Positions 41,584 through 51,130 of a DNA stretch of 64,000 bases are shown here, piece after piece (within the stretch, counting starts at the first letter, position 1; the number at the start of each line of letters is the position of its first letter). The notes beneath the pieces are model-generated. The model saw only the letters and a list, made by a program, of their open reading frames with translations, was not told the origin of the DNA and did no database searches. Source of the DNA: Gammaproteobacteria bacterium (GTDB taxonomy: Bacteria > Pseudomonadota > Gammaproteobacteria > HTCC5015); NCBI GenBank assembly GCA_013817245.1, contig JACDDA010000001.1, forward strand, positions 434,001-498,000, written 5' to 3'. The position numbers and the translations under genes were made by a program.

Positions 41584-44500
41584 TCAGGCAGATGATGTTT
41601 GCGACAGGGTAAGTTCTACATGATGAATCTGCTGGTCATCCACCAGTGGGATGTATGCTGATTCCAGCGCCACACCGTCCAGTGTTAAACCGGTGCCACT
41701 CAGCTCAGTGTCAGCAGAAATCTGGGTCACGACGATTTGATATTGAGTGCTGCCAAAACGATATGTGATCGAGTACGTGGTCCAATTTGCCGGCATGCGA
41801 GGGATGAGCCGCAGCTGATTTGCCTCTCGCGTCAATCCCAATAGCGATTCCAAAATCAAGCGGTAGAGCCAGCCCGCTGAACCCGTATACCAAGTCCAGC
41901 CTCCACGACCCATGTGGGGTGCAATCGCGTAGATATCCGCAGCCACAACATAGGGTTCAACCTTGTAAGTCGATACTTCCTGTGTACTGCGGCTGTGATT
42001 GTGAGGATTGATCAGATCCATCAGCTCCCAAGCGCGGCGGTTATCACCCATCTCAGCAAAAGCCATAGCAGCCCAGATCGCGGCGTGGGTGTATTGGCCA
42101 CCATTTTCACGCACACCGGGAACGTAACCTTTGATGTATCCGGGGTTCATCGCGGAACTGTCGAATGGCGGCGCTAGCAACTTGATCAGTTTGTCGTCTC
42201 TGCGTACCAGATGATGATCCAGTGAATCCATTGCCTGTCGTGAGCGTTCGTTGTCCCCTGCGCCGGACAGCACCGACCAGCTTTGAGCAATAGAATCAAT
42301 GCTGCATTCAGGATTCGTTGCTGAACCCAGTGGCGTGCCATCGTCAAACCAAGCTCGGAGATACCAAGCTCCATCCCAGCCGTGTTGTGCCAAATTTTCA
42401 CGCAGCTTTTCCGCTTCAGAAATACAGCGTTCGGCAAACACCGGATCGGCGTGCAGATGGGCGATGTCGGCAAAACGTTGCAATACCTGGTACAGAAAAA
42501 ATCCCAGCCATACGCTCTCGCCCACGCCTTTGATACCGACCTGACTCATGCCATCGTTCCAGTCACCAGAACCCATTAATGGCAAGCCTTTTTCCCCGAA
42601 ACGCAGCCCATGCAGAATAGACACCACACAATGTTGATAAAGGCTGACACTCTCATGACTGGTAGTGGGCAGATCGTAATAAGATTCCTCAGCTTCCTCT
42701 AAAGCGCGACCTTCAATGAACGGAATCATTTCGTTCAACACGTCGGTGTCACCCGTGCCTAGGACATAGCGGCAAGTGGCTAATGGCAGCCACAGGTAAT
42801 CGTCTGAGCAGCGGGTACGCACGCCACGTCCGACAGGTGGATGCCACCAGTGCTGTACGTCTCCCTGTGGATATTGGCGCGCAGCACACTTTAGAAGCTG
42901 TCGGCGCAGCAGATCCGGTTGAGTGTGTAGCAATGCCATTGCGTCCTGTAACTGGTCTCGGAATCCGAAAGCGCCCCCGGATTGATAGAAACCACTACGA
43001 GCCCAGAGACGACAAGCTAAAGTCTGATAAACCAACCAGCCATTGGCGAGTACGTTCAAGGACGCATCGGGCGTGTTAATTTGCACGGTACCCAAAGTGT
43101 GTGACCAGAACTGCTGTACTTTCCTCAGTGCTGCGTGAGCCGATCCTGGTTGACGCAGCTGTTGTGCCAGGACGCGAGCCGATTCCACATCATGCCCAGC
43201 GCCTAATCGAAAAATGATTTTCCGTTCTTGTCCGTCGGCGAGTTCGAAGGGTACCTGAATGGCGCCACAAGGATCGAGTGCTGCTCCAACACGGCCGGAC
43301 AACTGTGCCCGCGTCATAGCATCGGGGTGATGCAAGGTGCCGTTGCGGCCGATAAATTCAGTGCGATCACCGGTCAGCGTGCGAGCCAAGTCGTCTACAT
43401 CGAAGAATGCCACTCGGCCTCCAAACTCGGGGTTGTACGCATTGCGTGCGAACAATGCGCCGCTGAGATCAATTTCAGTAACAACATGCATGGCCGTTTT
43501 CTGCCGCAATTCACCCAAAATCCATTCCACATAGCCGGTAGCTGACAAATGTCGCATGCGACCAGAATTGTTGCGCACCTTCAATACTGAGAATTTGACT
43601 GCTGCTTCCAAATCCACGTACACGCAAAGCTCGGATTGAATGCCCTCTTCAGAGTGTTCGAAAATGCTGTAACCAAAACCGTGACGGGTTACATAGGGCG
43701 TGGCACCTTGGCAGGGCATGGGCGAAGGCGACCAGAAATGACCACTGTCCTCGTCACGAAGGTAAAACGCTTCGCCACCAGAGGCGCCTACGCAATCTCC
43801 TCCGCTCCAAGGTGTCAGCCTGAATTCATGGGCGTTCTCACTCCAGGTGTAGGCCAGACCACTTTCGGTCACTACGCTACCGAATTGATCGTTGGCGAGT
43901 ACATTCACCCAAGGCAAGGGGGTCTGGTTGGTCAATGTGGTCGTGATGATGTATTCGCGACCATCGCTACTGAATCCCCCCAGGCCGTTATCTAGCTGTA
44001 GTTCCTCGCCGGAGTTTTCCAAAGTTGCTGGGGTTGCAGGCGGGAAATTATGGGTGATGGCCAGTGGTGCAACGGATTTTTTAACCAGCAGGCGCCGGTT
44101 AAGTTGTTCCGACAGAGTACCTCGGGTATCGGAAATGATAATGCGGGCAACTGCCTGTAATAGGATTCGATCCTCACTGGAAATCTGTTCGGCGTAGTGC
44201 ACGAAGATTCCACCAGGGCGGCCAATGGAATGGGCTTCTGTGCCAGTGGCAATGAGTCCCATGATTTGATCTTGCAGATGTTGCCGGTAGCTCATGTGAT
44301 CTTGATTCCAGATCACTAAATCCACATCAAGACCTTTCAAACGCCAATAGGCATGGCATTGAATCAGTTGCCGCGCTATTTCAATATGATCGCTATTGGC
44401 AATTTTCAATAAGACGATGGGCAGGTCGCCGGAAATGGCATAACCCCACAAGCTGGATTGACCGCGTCGATTCTGCATCAGCACCGCGGTGTCCGCGCGC

Positions 44501-47500
44501 AAGCCAGCATTGGCATACAGTATAGAACTAGCGAGGCGACGATAAAGATTGGCATCGGCTTCGCTGGCATTAATCTGTCGTAAGGTCACACCGCTGTGGG
44601 TCAAAGCCAGACCCAGTCCCCGGTTTGCCAAATGTCGATCCTGGTATTTTGCAACCAGAGCGAGACATGCTTCTCGGCTGTCAGCCATGCCGGTCACAAT
44701 GTCTAGGGTGACCATTTGATCCGCTTCCAAAGTGACCGGACAGCGAATAGCGACAATTGGATCAAGCACAGAACCTGCACTGCCGGATAGTTCGCCGAGT
44801 TCGGTCATGGCCAGGGGTGACACCAAAGTACGGCCACGGCCAATAAACTCTAGGCGGTCAGTCGTGCTGGAAAGTACGCCGATACTCCCGTTGTTATCAT
44901 TATCATTACGATGGGTGGCCAGTAGATGAAACATCCACGGCGCTTTTTCTTCAACAGAACGGGGTCGTCGGGTACACAGTATTGCGTGACCACCCGGCAG
45001 GATTTCTGTTTGTACGAACAAGTTGCTGAACGACGGCTGCGTCATATCTGCCGCAGGCAGAGCCATGACCACTTCAGCATAAGTAGTAAAGTCGAGTGTG
45101 CGATAACGATGGGAATGATTGGTGATGCGTACTCTTCGCAGTTCGATGTCGTCTTCCGGCGATACCACGATGTCGGAATAGGTTTCGATATCATGATCAC
45201 GGCGACAGTACTCAGCGCGTCCTTCAGAAAATAGGACACTGTAAGTCTGAGCTCGTTTGAGCGTGGGCTGATGCGTGGCAGACCAGATGTCGCCGTCGGC
45301 GATATCGCGCAGATAAATGAACGTGCCCCAGTTGTCGCAAGTGCTGTCCTCACGCCAACGGGTTACTGCCAGATCTTTCCAGCGACTATAACCACCACCG
45401 GCATTAGTGAGCATGACGTGGTAACGCCCATTGGACAACAGCTGCACTTCTGGCGTGGGCGTATCTGCGCCGATAGGCGTATGTGCAGAGGTTTTCCCTT
45501 CCTCGAACATGGCACTGCCTTCAGCGTGTTCATCAATGTGCGGTTGAAATATTGAAATCTTGGGTGTCCGTTCCTGCAGTAGCAAGAGCGCGGATTGGAG
45601 CAGCGGGTCGGATTCGAAACGCCGTTGCATGGGCTGGCCCAGTAAGCGAAAAGCCAGTGCCAGCAGGCTCATGCCCTGATGATGCGCCATAAACGAACGC
45701 ACTATTGCACTGGTCTTGCCACGAATGAGTCGCGATGGCGTGTAGTCAATGGCTTCATACATACCATAGCGCCCTTCCAGCCCGCTTGCCGCTAACCTTT
45801 GCAAATTTGTACACGCAGCTTCCGGAGCTACCATCAGTGCTAGCACCGAGGCATAAGGTGCGATCACCAAATCCTCTGCGAGTCCTCGCTTGAGTCCCAA
45901 ACCAGGCACACCGAAAGCGTGGTACTGGTAATTGAGGCTGGCGTCGACCGTGTTGTAGCCGGATTCCGACACCCCCCAAGGCACACCACGTTGTTGACCG
46001 TAGGCAATTTGCCGAGCCACAGCAACGCGACAAGTCTGGTACAACAAGGTGCCCGCATAAGTGGGCATTACCAGCATTGGCATGAGGTATTCAAACATCG
46101 AGCCGCTCCAAGACACTAGCACGGGCTCTCTACTGCCTGCGGTGGTTAGAAGTCGGCTCAGTGCAAACCAGTTTTCTTGCGGAAGCTGGCCTTGTGCGAT
46201 CGCGATAAAACTACAAAGACGCGCTTCCGATGCCAATAGATCATAGAAGCTCGTATCACGCTGGTTTGTATCGACGTTGTAGCCGATAGCGAGCAAATGC
46301 TGGGTACGGTCATAAAGGAATTCATATTTCATCGTGGCAAATCCGAAAGCCCGTTGTGCTAACCGTTCGCTGAGAATGATGCGTTGCTTGGCGTATTCGG
46401 CACCCGTAATAGTCAGATCACGCAGAGCTATTAACCAACGATTTTCGTCAGTTGACATTGCTGTTTGCAAACGGGTATCTATGGCGGCTAATTGTTCAAC
46501 ACTACGTGTTGCCAGTTGACGCAAGGTTGGAATATCAGTGTTATTCACAAACTGTATTAGGCTAGTAGGGGCAACTGGCAGGCTTAGCCAAGGTGCAAGA
46601 GAACGTATTTCTATAATCGCTGCGTGACATTGCTGTTGCAAATCTTCGACCCAGCTATAGGCATCGCTATTAATAATGTCAGTGTGAGGCTCTGTCTGGA
46701 ACTGAGAGAACAGTTCATTTGCGCAGCGAGACAATGGTGTTAGTAGCTGTACAGTTTTTATAAGATTCGCCGGGGCTTGTATGCAGGCCGCATTCAACAA
46801 AGCGTGCATTTGCTGGATAGTGGCCTGAATTGCTGTTGTTTTAGTATCGTCGAGCAACGTCGTATTAATGGATAAGTCTACAAAGGCATCTGTAAAAACA
46901 TCCAATGTGGTTATAAGTCCCTCAAATAGCTTCGGGTGAAGGATTTTTTGATCCGGCACATCCAACAGTGCTACGCGCAGGGTCAACAAATGTCCGGCGA
47001 GGTTGCCGCTGTCCACGGATGAAATATAGCGAGGTTTTAATGGTTGCAGTGAACGAGTGTCGTACCAGTTGTAGAAATGACCTTTGTGTCGCTCCAACTG
47101 ATCTAATGTATCAAAGCAATTCGCGGTGCGTTGCAGCAGCGTGCCTGCGGGAATAAAACCAAAATCGCAGGCGGATACATTGGCTAACAAGGATAAGCCG
47201 ATGTTGGTGGGCGATGTGCGATGTGCAATCACCGGATTTGGGTATTCCTGAAAGTTGTCCGGTATCAGCCAGTTGTCATCGATACAGGAAAAGTGTTCGA
47301 AGTAAGCCCAGGATTTGCGGGCAAGTCGGTTTAAAAATCTGGTCTGATCTGAATTAAGTGTTGGTTCACGATCGGGTTTTGGCAAGCTCAACCACCAGGC
47401 AATGCCGGGGGAGGCAAACCAGAGCATCAGCAAGATTATAATGAGCGGGTTTGGCTGTATGAATGCTAGACAAATCGCAGCGACACTCGCAATGACTGGC

Positions 47501-50388
47501 GCTACCCACATGGTGCAATAGACGCCTAGCAGGCCAGTTCCGCAGCGGCTGCGTTGACCATTAAAAGTCGTGAACCATTCCAGCAGGCCGTGATGGGTGA
47601 AGAGCATGCGCCCAGCGCTGCGCAGAATCGCCGCAAGATTGAATACGGCTTCGTGGGGCAGACAAACTATACGGAATCCGGCTTGGAGGAAACCATGCCT
47701 AGTACTGCGCAGCACCGCGCGAATATGGTGCCGCAGTAACATTTCCCGAGGTTTGTGCCAGATCGCTACCAAACCGGTTAGTAAAGGCGGTAGTAGTAAA
47801 ACCGACAATACAGCGAAGGTCCACAGAATGGGATTGGGTGCTTCCCCCCAACCTATTAGTAATAGAAGCAATAGCGCCATGGGTTCCAGGCTGCGACGCA
47901 AATTGTCAAAAATTTTCCAGCGTGACAGGATCGATAGCGGGTTTCTTTCGCTGCGATTCAGGATTGTTGGCGCCCGCGGCAACATCCAATGGGCAATCTG
48001 CCAATCACCACGAATCCATCGTTCGCGTCTGCGCATGTCAGTGTCATAGCGAGTCGGGTGTTCCTCGTAAAGATGCACGTCACTCAGTAGTCCTGATCGA
48101 GCAAAGCATCCTTCCAATAAATCATGACTGAGGATGCGGTTCTCCGGCAGACGATTCTTTAGTACCTGCTCGAACACATCGACATCATAGATGCCCTTGC
48201 CGATAAACGAACCTTCACCAAACAGATCTTGATACACATCCGATACAGAACGTGTGTAAGGATCAATACCTGGCTCTTCACCGTAAAGTTGCGCATAACG
48301 TGAAGGGGTTTGCCTCGACAAGTTGGCAGCCATGCGGGGTTGCAAAATGCCGTAACCACCACAGACACGTTGTTTTTTTTCATCATAACGAGGCTGGTTG
48401 AGCGGGTGTGACATGGTGGCGGCAAACTGCCGTGCTGAGTCGCGTGGCAATAGCGTATCGGTATCCAGAGTAATGACGTATTTCACTTGTGAGAGAACCG
48501 TAATATTGCCAACAATGAGTTCGAAACGATCCAAGTTTTCGCCGCGCAAAAGCGCATTCAGATCTCCCAGCTTGCCGCGTTTGCGTTCGTAACCCATCCA
48601 TATTTTTTCCTGAGCATTCCAGGAGCGAGGGCGATGTAATAGGTAGAAACAATCACCGTCACGCTGAGGCAATTGCGTCGGATATTTTGCGTTGAGATGC
48701 TCAATGCCTAAACGTGCCTGTCGCAGTAAATGCTCATCATTAATTTGCGTTTGTTTCGGGGCATCGTGGAAATCAGTTAGCAGCCCGAAATGCAGATACT
48801 CGTCGCGATTACCCAAAAACCGCACTTCCATAGCCTCTAACAGATCTTCGATGTCTTGTGTGCTACTTAACAAAGTGGGAACCACCACTAATGTTCGTAT
48901 TGAAGGAGGCAGTCCTTTTGAATAATCCATGCGCGGCAAGCGCTGTGGTTCTACCAGCAATGTAGCGATCCAATTAACGAGTGCCAATGCCAGTTGACTG
49001 CCTGCCAGTACTGCCAGGCAGCCTAAAAACAAGCTAGGCCAGTGACTGATATCGGTAGGCTGGGCCAGTCTCAGCAGTATTGCGGCGAACAGGGAAGTGA
49101 GGAGCAGAATAGAACCAAGATACAAAACCAGTGGTGAGCGAGAAGTGATAGCGCGCAATCGTGCAGATAAGGATCGCCGTGCCATCACAGCGGTTTCCAG
49201 CTGCAGCAGCCCATGATCAATTAGATAAAAACCGACGTGAGTAGCGGGGTTGCGGCGGGTGCCATCATTAGGGTTGGTCGCTTGTAGAGCTAGTTGGATA
49301 GCAATGCGTGCGATATCAATTTCAGAATGTTTGCTGCGTTTAGCTAGCCTGTCGATCACCCGACGATAATGATCCCGAGTTGCGAAATCCATTGCACCGT
49401 AAACACCGTCGATGTCTTGCTGCAATATTTTTTCAACACCACTGTTTGCTTCGACAAAATCGCGCCAATCCATCGCGGTCAGCCAACGCAGACTGCCAAT
49501 GGTGTTGCTGATGGATATTTGATCTGCCGCTTGATGCTGGTTTTCGGCTTGCACCAGCTGATTGATAGTGAGACTGGATTCTGCCAGCCGCTTTTCGATC
49601 CAGCTGAGAGGCAGAGCCAAAGCAGGACCATGACCTTGCAACTGCCGTGTCAGTTCAGCTACAAATGCGCTGGTCATCGGCGGTTCGGAACGTGCCATGT
49701 CAGCAACTACCAGAATCAGGCTTTTAGGGTCACGTTCCGCGATTTCCAGCATCTGATTTGACCACTCCTGCGCTAGATTGCGATGCTGGCGAGAGGTGGT
49801 GATGAGGGCGCTCACGCGGCGCAGATTTTCAATCAGGGTCAGTCGCAGCATGATGGGAATGGCCCACAACTCCCCCAGCGTGAGAGGCGTAATAGTTTGA
49901 TATGCCGCTACGAAAGATCCCAGAGTTTCAGCATCCACGCGGCCGTCACCATGGGAAATGGTATTAAGTGCAATGTCATAGACGCGCGGCAAATCATGAG
50001 ATTTGCCCTGCGCCAGATGAGGCAGTTCCCGACTGTAACCTTTTGGCAAATGGAGGCGCGCCGTGCGAATCTGTTCTTCGATGAGATAAAAATTATCAAG
50101 CAACCATTCACCAGACGGCGCGATGCGATCCTTGGCTTTCACCGCAACTGTCAGCAGATTGCAGGTCGAGATCAGTACCTGTTCATTGGCATCCAGTCGT
50201 TTCAATAGAAGATCTTGTGTACTGGTCGGGCTCAGTACGTGAGTACTTGCCAGAACTTTGGCATGCTGGGCCATTTGGTCAGCATTAAATAGTTCTTCCC
50301 GTAACGGTCTCTCATTCTCCAGTGTAGATGACTGGAACCACGTAGCGGTGTTACGCAAAAAGTGGGAGAAAGGAATTTCGAAATTCAT
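41584..50388 (-). CDS. ndvB: Cyclic beta-glucan synthase (NdvB/ChvB type)
   Basis: At 2934 residues this is the largest gene of the window. Layout: a helical N-terminal region, membrane helices (about 405-475), a GT84 glycosyltransferase domain with the metal-binding DTDTLLPRDSARQFAAT near 641, RRERWIRGDWQ near 770, further membrane helices (about 820-1000), two GH94-like/carbohydrate-binding beta-sandwich repeats and a C-terminal GH94 phosphorylase-like domain with FGFRDQLQDAMAL near 2469 and GSGDWNDGMSQVG near 2606. Such enzymes build and cyclise periplasmic beta-1,2-glucan, which is used for osmotic adaptation and host interaction. The ATG overlaps the stop of the ATPase gamma remnant (ATGA). 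Confidence 0.93.
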   Translation of the reverse strand: MNFEIPFSHFLRNTATWFQSSTLENERPLREELFNADQMAQHAKVLASTHVLSPTSTQDLLLKRLDANEQVLISTCNLLTVAVKAKDRIAPSGEWLLDNFYLIEEQIRTARLHLPKGYSRELPHLAQGKSHDLPRVYDIALNTISHGDGRVDAETLGSFVAAYQTITPLTLGELWAIPIMLRLTLIENLRRVSALITTSRQHRNLAQEWSNQMLEIAERDPKSLILVVADMARSEPPMTSAFVAELTRQLQGHGPALALPLSWIEKRLAESSLTINQLVQAENQHQAADQISISNTIGSLRWLTAMDWRDFVEANSGVEKILQQDIDGVYGAMDFATRDHYRRVIDRLAKRSKHSEIDIARIAIQLALQATNPNDGTRRNPATHVGFYLIDHGLLQLETAVMARRSLSARLRAITSRSPLVLYLGSILLLTSLFAAILLRLAQPTDISHWPSLFLGCLAVLAGSQLALALVNWIATLLVEPQRLPRMDYSKGLPPSIRTLVVVPTLLSSTQDIEDLLEAMEVRFLGNRDEYLHFGLLTDFHDAPKQTQINDEHLLRQARLGIEHLNAKYPTQLPQRDGDCFYLLHRPRSWNAQEKIWMGYERKRGKLGDLNALLRGENLDRFELIVGNITVLSQVKYVITLDTDTLLPRDSARQFAATMSHPLNQPRYDEKKQRVCGGYGILQPRMAANLSRQTPSRYAQLYGEEPGIDPYTRSVSDVYQDLFGEGSFIGKGIYDVDVFEQVLKNRLPENRILSHDLLEGCFARSGLLSDVHLYEEHPTRYDTDMRRRERWIRGDWQIAHWMLPRAPTILNRSERNPLSILSRWKIFDNLRRSLEPMALLLLLLIGWGEAPNPILWTFAVLSVLLLPPLLTGLVAIWHKPREMLLRHHIRAVLRSTRHGFLQAGFRIVCLPHEAVFNLAAILRSAGRMLFTHHGLLEWFTTFNGQRSRCGTGLLGVYCTMWVAPVIASVAAICLAFIQPNPLIIILLMLWFASPGIAWWLSLPKPDREPTLNSDQTRFLNRLARKSWAYFEHFSCIDDNWLIPDNFQEYPNPVIAHRTSPTNIGLSLLANVSACDFGFIPAGTLLQRTANCFDTLDQLERHKGHFYNWYDTRSLQPLKPRYISSVDSGNLAGHLLTLRVALLDVPDQKILHPKLFEGLITTLDVFTDAFVDLSINTTLLDDTKTTAIQATIQQMHALLNAACIQAPANLIKTVQLLTPLSRCANELFSQFQTEPHTDIINSDAYSWVEDLQQQCHAAIIEIRSLAPWLSLPVAPTSLIQFVNNTDIPTLRQLATRSVEQLAAIDTRLQTAMSTDENRWLIALRDLTITGAEYAKQRIILSERLAQRAFGFATMKYEFLYDRTQHLLAIGYNVDTNQRDTSFYDLLASEARLCSFIAIAQGQLPQENWFALSRLLTTAGSREPVLVSWSGSMFEYLMPMLVMPTYAGTLLYQTCRVAVARQIAYGQQRGVPWGVSESGYNTVDASLNYQYHAFGVPGLGLKRGLAEDLVIAPYASVLALMVAPEAACTNLQRLAASGLEGRYGMYEAIDYTPSRLIRGKTSAIVRSFMAHHQGMSLLALAFRLLGQPMQRRFESDPLLQSALLLLQERTPKISIFQPHIDEHAEGSAMFEEGKTSAHTPIGADTPTPEVQLLSNGRYHVMLTNAGGGYSRWKDLAVTRWREDSTCDNWGTFIYLRDIADGDIWSATHQPTLKRAQTYSVLFSEGRAEYCRRDHDIETYSDIVVSPEDDIELRRVRITNHSHRYRTLDFTTYAEVVMALPAADMTQPSFSNLFVQTEILPGGHAILCTRRPRSVEEKAPWMFHLLATHRNDNDNNGSIGVLSSTTDRLEFIGRGRTLVSPLAMTELGELSGSAGSVLDPIVAIRCPVTLEADQMVTLDIVTGMADSREACLALVAKYQDRHLANRGLGLALTHSGVTLRQINASEADANLYRRLASSILYANAGLRADTAVLMQNRRGQSSLWGYAISGDLPIVLLKIANSDHIEIARQLIQCHAYWRLKGLDVDLVIWNQDHMSYRQHLQDQIMGLIATGTEAHSIGRPGGIFVHYAEQISSEDRILLQAVARIIISDTRGTLSEQLNRRLLVKKSVAPLAITHNFPPATPATLENSGEELQLDNGLGGFSSDGREYIITTTLTNQTPLPWVNVLANDQFGSVVTESGLAYTWSENAHEFRLTPWSGGDCVGASGGEAFYLRDEDSGHFWSPSPMPCQGATPYVTRHGFGYSIFEHSEEGIQSELCVYVDLEAAVKFSVLKVRNNSGRMRHLSATGYVEWILGELRQKTAMHVVTEIDLSGALFARNAYNPEFGGRVAFFDVDDLARTLTGDRTEFIGRNGTLHHPDAMTRAQLSGRVGAALDPCGAIQVPFELADGQERKIIFRLGAGHDVESARVLAQQLRQPGSAHAALRKVQQFWSHTLGTVQINTPDASLNVLANGWLVYQTLACRLWARSGFYQSGGAFGFRDQLQDAMALLHTQPDLLRRQLLKCAARQYPQGDVQHWWHPPVGRGVRTRCSDDYLWLPLATCRYVLGTGDTDVLNEMIPFIEGRALEEAEESYYDLPTTSHESVSLYQHCVVSILHGLRFGEKGLPLMGSGDWNDGMSQVGIKGVGESVWLGFFLYQVLQRFADIAHLHADPVFAERCISEAEKLRENLAQHGWDGAWYLRAWFDDGTPLGSATNPECSIDSIAQSWSVLSGAGDNERSRQAMDSLDHHLVRRDDKLIKLLAPPFDSSAMNPGYIKGYVPGVRENGGQYTHAAIWAAMAFAEMGDNRRAWELMDLINPHNHSRSTQEVSTYKVEPYVVAADIYAIAPHMGRGGWTWYTGSAGWLYRLILESLLGLTREANQLRLIPRMPANWTTYSITYRFGSTQYQIVVTQISADTELSGTGLTLDGVALESAYIPLVDDQQIHHVELTLSQTSSA

Positions 50389-50624
50389 GTTATTCGCCTG
50401 AGATCTGAAACAGAGGAAATTTGCGAACCAACAATCACATCGAACATTTCGGCATCGATGCTGGCCTGGCGCAAACGCTGGTGATTTTTCTTAAGTGTTG
50501 CTAATAATTCTTCAATGTTGTTATCTATTCGCTGCATGGCGGCCAGTCTGCTTGCGTTTTCGCTCGATAATGATTCAGCGCTTGCACAAAACAGTGATAC
50601 AAACAAATACTCACGAATGAGCAC
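50385..50624 (-). pseudogene. C-terminal remnant of N-ATPase gamma subunit (atpG)
   Basis: A 79-codon frame starting with GTG encodes EYLFVSLFCASAESLSSENASRLAAMQRIDNNIEELLATL..RQASIDAEMFDVIVG in succession (about 5-70). This is the C-terminal helix of the F-type ATPase gamma subunit, where E-x-L-x-S-E-x-x-x-R-x-x-A-M and R-Q-x-x-I-T/D-x-E-x-x-D/E-I/V-V-x-G are conserved. The N-terminal two thirds of gamma are missing. The frame ends in ATGA that also starts ndvB. An ordinary small gene is unlikely because the homology is to the end of a larger protein. In N-ATPase operons gamma is the last gene. Confidence 0.78.
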
Positions 50625-50708
50625 GCAAGATATTGCGTTTTATTACCGAGAAGTTCCGCTAAGTTTTGTATCGCCCATGATTTTTCAACGAGTTGTCTGC
50701 ACCAGTGC

Positions 50709-50906
50709 TCATCGAGCGGTAACAGGCGTTGTGTGACAGGAAGGTAAACGAACCATATGTGTCAGAACGTGGATGGCTATCCGCGCATTATCTGTATGCA
50801 GCAAAGAAAAAATAGCAGGCAAATGAAAAGTGAAATGTTTATCTACAACACTGCCTCGCACTGAAACAACGGTACCAGGATTATGCGTGATGTTGTTGAC
50901 GCTCAT
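50709..50906 (-). pseudogene. N-terminal remnant of N-ATPase beta subunit (atpD)
   Basis: An AAGGAA ribosome site and ATG at 50906 begin MSVNNITHNPGTVVSVRGSVVDKHFTFHLPAIFSLLHTDNARIAIHVLTHM, given here as consecutive pieces. The GxVVSVRGSVVDxxF..HLPxIxSLL sequence is the start of the F1 beta subunit in N-ATPase operons (sodium-type second F1Fo ATPases). About 45-50 residues match, then the frame continues into unrelated sequence and stops. The nucleotide-binding domain is absent. In intact operons beta is the first gene and gamma the last; here the two ends lie about 100 bases apart. Confidence 0.75.
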
Positions 50907-50909
50907 TCA

Positions 50910-51130
50910 ATAATTCCTTGAGGCTTTTTGCAGGCGCCATTACTAATATGATGATAACTAGCTCGCCTGAGTATTAAGCATAACGCCAACCACCGAGCAG
51001 GTATGTTCGGTAAAAGACAGACCTATGCCAATCGCCACGTTTACTCTGATCAGCAAGCGTTGACAGTGACCATTAATGCGCATTGCCAAGATTATCGTTG
51101 AAAATATTCAGAGCGAGTGCAGTTAGCAAT
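50910..51130. other. Intergenic region between the atpD remnant and the HAD gene
   Basis: About 220 bases of divergent promoter region. It includes the residual promoter side of the former N-ATPase operon and the promoter of the HAD-tal genes. A 32-codon frame (51003-51101) is open but has no homolog that I recognise. Confidence 0.4.

Follow-up and report, generated by a model that had tools for sequence, protein, structure and literature searches.

Alternate-type F1Fo ATPases (N-ATPases) are encoded by operons with the order IB-IE-I-R-0A-0C-0B-IA-IG (PMC4154653), in which atpD and atpC have been moved to the front (PMC5376962). An intact N-ATPase operon in a genome of the same class as ours (G017) carries, according to the NCBIfam models (TIGR03305, 03166, 02230, 03165, 03306, 03322, 03321, 03324, 03323), genes for beta, epsilon, gene 1 (AtpI-like), subunit 2 (AtpR-like), a, c, b, alpha and gamma, and this gene order agrees with the published descriptions. 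Here, we present a locus from a 64,000-nucleotide stretch of a gammaproteobacterial genome (hereafter the window), which is very probably the non-functional remnant of an N-type ATPase operon that was acquired laterally with an island of sugar genes and then underwent an internal deletion of ~6 kb. The two ends of the remnant share family, order and direction with the N-ATPases. In contrast to an intact operon, the seven middle genes are missing, as are the greater part of beta and over half of gamma, and the remnant is not functional.

Structure of the remnant

The features of the remnant and its surroundings, given in positions of the window, are the following:

50915-50919, minus strand: Shine-Dalgarno-like AAGGA of the former atpD (beta), preceding the ATG at 50906 (sequence)
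50754-50906, minus strand: first ~51 codons of the N-ATPase beta gene, atpD (TIGR03305 match and alignment with intact betas)
50750-50757, minus strand: deletion junction (ends of the beta and gamma alignments; distances in intact operons)
50625-50749, minus strand: first stretch of the gamma (atpG) remnant, in another frame than its end (translation in three frames, alignment to intact gammas)
50385-50624, minus strand: C-terminus of gamma (atpG), ~79 codons ending at the stop (TIGR03323 positions 217-281, PF00231)
50385-50388, minus strand: overlap of the gamma stop and the ndvB start, ATGA (sequence)
41584-50388, minus strand: ndvB-like gene of 2934 aa, directly downstream of the remnant and a member of the island (sequence reading)
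38262-64000, continuing ~4 kb past the window (to G000:C1:502.1 kb), no strand: putatively acquired island (raised GC, empty priA-argS site elsewhere, no match to ndvB or xfp in family mates)

The ATG at 50906 opens a frame of 65 codons on the minus strand, and the intact ribosome site and beta-like start that a preliminary description of this DNA had placed here are both borne out by the AAGGA at 50919-50915 and by a profile search, in which residues 11-51 of the frame align with positions 1-42 of TIGR03305, the model for alternate (N-type) F1 beta subunits, with E 5.3e-7. The whole-protein cut-off of this model is out of reach for a fragment. In nucleotide alignments with intact operons, beta homology ends at ~50757-50752 and gamma homology starts at 50749 (gamma reference from Zhongshania sp., L043), and what follows codon 51 in the 65-residue beta frame is therefore out-of-frame gamma sequence.

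With 98 bits (E 4.7e-28), the frame that stops at 50385 aligns to positions 217-281 of TIGR03323, the model for alternate gamma subunits, and it additionally matches PF00231 (E 1.1e-15). Upstream of it, three-frame translation gives a segment reading LPVTQRLLPLDEHWCRQLVEKSWAIQNLAELLG onward, which aligns with intact gammas, and one small frameshift between ~50645 and ~50626 divides the two segments. The earlier reading of a C-terminal gamma helix was thus right regarding the gamma-like character and the end of the piece, but too short: the surviving gamma runs from ~50749 to 50385, approximately 120 codons, the upstream third of which lies in another frame.

The preliminary description had made its reading dependent on significant matches of both frames to F1 beta and gamma subunits, and both profile matches are well above chance. 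Apart from these two pieces, the search of the genome yielded no beta or gamma of the N-type, and the complete set of subunit genes that defines a functional N-ATPase is accordingly absent from it. The remnant accompanies an ordinary F-ATPase in the same genome, located on contig C2 and intact, with the order alpha, gamma, beta. As the two families are homologous, a partial duplicate of the ordinary F-type genes would be a conceivable source of the pieces. However, the gamma frame reaches only 43 bits with the standard gamma model against 98 with the alternate one, and an arrangement that begins with beta and ends with gamma is at odds with the gene order of the operon on C2, which reduces the probability of such a duplicate to almost nil. 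The assignment to the N-ATPase family is instead upheld by the alternate-type profile matches, the mapping on intact operons and the fact that the genome has no further N-ATPase, and the operon order on which it had been built, with beta first and gamma last, is that of both the G017 operon and the literature.

Junction, deletion and decay

The junction can be located to ~8 bases, with homology passing continuously from beta to gamma. The gap of ~100 bases that had been proposed between the two pieces does not exist, since beta directly abuts gamma. Three-frame translation and alignment revealed no recognisable trace of the seven internal N-ATPase genes between the ends, and the earlier statement that all genes between had gone, with both ends left in the right order and direction, holds: beta is first, gamma is last, and both are on the minus strand. 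The other hallmarks of the family, namely the presence of atpQ and atpR, the absence of delta and an ion-binding motif in c, concern the part of the operon that was deleted. The remnant showed no direct repeats. In most intact operons the same two points lie 6.0-6.7 kb apart, the exceptions being a locus of 7.8 kb, which contains an additional gene, and a Gallionella locus whose genes are ordered differently.

From this mapping we infer an internal deletion of probably ~6 kb, where both the exact size and the parent operon are deduced by comparison with intact relatives. It had been proposed as a single large event; the mapping supports the internal deletion, while its singleness is the simplest reading, and one deletion rather than several probably removed the middle genes. 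The frameshift in gamma shows that decay had more than one step, as would be expected if the middle genes had gone in several successive deletions. Nevertheless, this course of events is rather unlikely given that the seven genes left no trace and that beta and gamma meet within a few bases. One deletion followed by minor decay suffices to account for the remnant.

The proposed history starts with the lateral arrival of an N-type operon between priA and argS, inside an island of ~30 kb that would also have carried ndvB and genes of the pentose-phosphate and phosphoketolase pathways. The internal deletion of ~6 kb would then have joined beta codon ~51 to a gamma point ~120 codons before its end, with the small gamma frameshift accompanying or following it. 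The N-ATPase would thus have been lost after arrival, while the sugar genes stayed. Deviations at conserved positions amount to 3 of 40 in gamma and 1 of 13 in beta, against a mean of ~6% in intact genes. This rate, being like that of intact genes, fits a young pseudogene and a recent loss, and is by itself no sign of lost constraint. A DNA search found no copies of the remnant in three family mates, two of which are 63% and 73% complete.

Other collapsed N-ATPases and a possible retained role

A second collapse was found on the minus strand in a genome from another family of the class (G229; L036:2369-2762, G229:C7), where ~24 codons of a beta start are followed by the last ~100-110 codons of gamma. 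As in the present remnant, a beta start is joined to a gamma end in different frames. The gamma breaks are near each other, but the beta breaks, at codons ~24 and 51, are ~27 codons apart, and both the neighbours and the family are different, and an independent event is most likely. A DNA search of the relatives of G229 found no further copy of its remnant, with one weak match of 30 bases. When 398 genomes of the phylum were searched with a profile of the gamma tail, roughly a dozen strong gammas of the N-type were recovered, and the present remnant was the sole one outside a long open frame. With no further collapse in this sample, no general collapse hot spot is evident, and two collapse cases are too few for one. 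Separately, genome G055 (L068:9914-10261, G055:C32) has an N-type gamma tail in a degraded state, next to which no beta could be recognised.

The gene directly downstream of the remnant is presumably a cyclic glucan synthase gene. Both ends of the operon may survive since ndvB, which starts inside the gamma stop codon, could use the old operon leader. In such a case the collapsed piece would be kept for a function, either with the leader and gamma tail aiding the translation of ndvB or with the gamma tail acting as a short protein on the housekeeping F1. The ATGA overlap, the few deviations at conserved sites and the preservation of the same two ends in G229 are consistent with this idea. On the other hand, gamma carries a frameshift, the remnant of G229 has no closely coupled downstream gene, the young age alone accounts for the conservation, and the promoter evidence is negative, as no match to a sigma-70-like promoter was found upstream, all of which makes a retained function very unlikely. 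Similarly slim is the prospect that repeated collapse of N-ATPases to a beta head and gamma tail yields a selected expression leader, useful to neighbours such as ndvB, and not just debris.

Genomic context

The island that holds the remnant is ~30 kb long, with a GC content of ~46-62% compared to ~43-45% on both sides, and is bounded by priA on one side and, on the other, by two genes of host-like GC followed by argS. It includes 6-phosphogluconolactonase-, 6-phosphogluconate dehydrogenase- and zwf-like genes, ndvB, the remnant, a HAD gene and transaldolase (tal), and further cation ATPases (Cu-ATPase-like), pgm, ackA, xfp and DUF2254. In three other genomes of the class (G008, G004 and G005) priA and argS are adjacent, with a SPOR-like gene next, and the simplest reading of the block is therefore an insertion in this lineage. 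Neither ndvB nor xfp had a match in the three family mates (two of them incomplete, at 63% and 73%).

Relatives of the island genes are found next to intact N-ATPases in several other genomes. The arrangement is tal-ackA-xfp-DUF2254-[N-ATPase] in G017 and xfp-DUF2254-[N-ATPase] in G449. In G611, ndvB (67% identity over the full length) adjoins the beta start, in G087 it lies ~5 kb past gamma, and in G327 tal directly follows gamma. Further, pgm and xfp precede the beta gene of L045. In Alteromonas facilis (L066), beta is immediately preceded by a relative of ndvB and a 48-residue xfp tail. Because intact N-ATPases elsewhere thus adjoin relatives of the block genes, the simplest account is that the operon travelled with the island, which agrees with the earlier suggestion that the remnant marks how the surrounding, GC-distinct block between priA and argS may have arrived. 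In nine other genomes, the DNA preceding ndvB was free of N-ATPase genes. The preliminary description had proposed to look for an intact operon lying precisely between ndvB and the HAD gene; none was found in the genomes examined, nor was any relative with an intact operon in the same place.

Three other loci had unusual arrangements. The xfp tail of A. facilis (L066:3201-3344), directly upstream of beta, is apparently the remnant of a neighbouring module. In Desulfogranum marinum (L044:7851-9167), a gene for a DUF2254 membrane protein lies directly before gamma, within the span of the N-ATPase operon. In Gallionella sp. STB_49 (L051:9341-11598), a rearranged N-ATPase operon has the N-type beta immediately after gamma rather than at the front.

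Significance

As a feature, the remnant is an ordinary and well resolved deletion pseudogene, and its setting in the island is of greater use. The listed examples are suggestive of a recurrent gene neighbourhood in which N-ATPases are accompanied by phosphoketolase, acetate kinase, transaldolase, phosphoglucomutase, DUF2254 and ndvB; among the paper texts searched, none combined N-ATPase with phosphoketolase. The remnant represents a trace left by a laterally moving ATPase that was gained and lost, and the association of N-ATPases with the phosphoketolase pathway, if it holds true in a wider count, would be a clue to the use of the N-ATPase.
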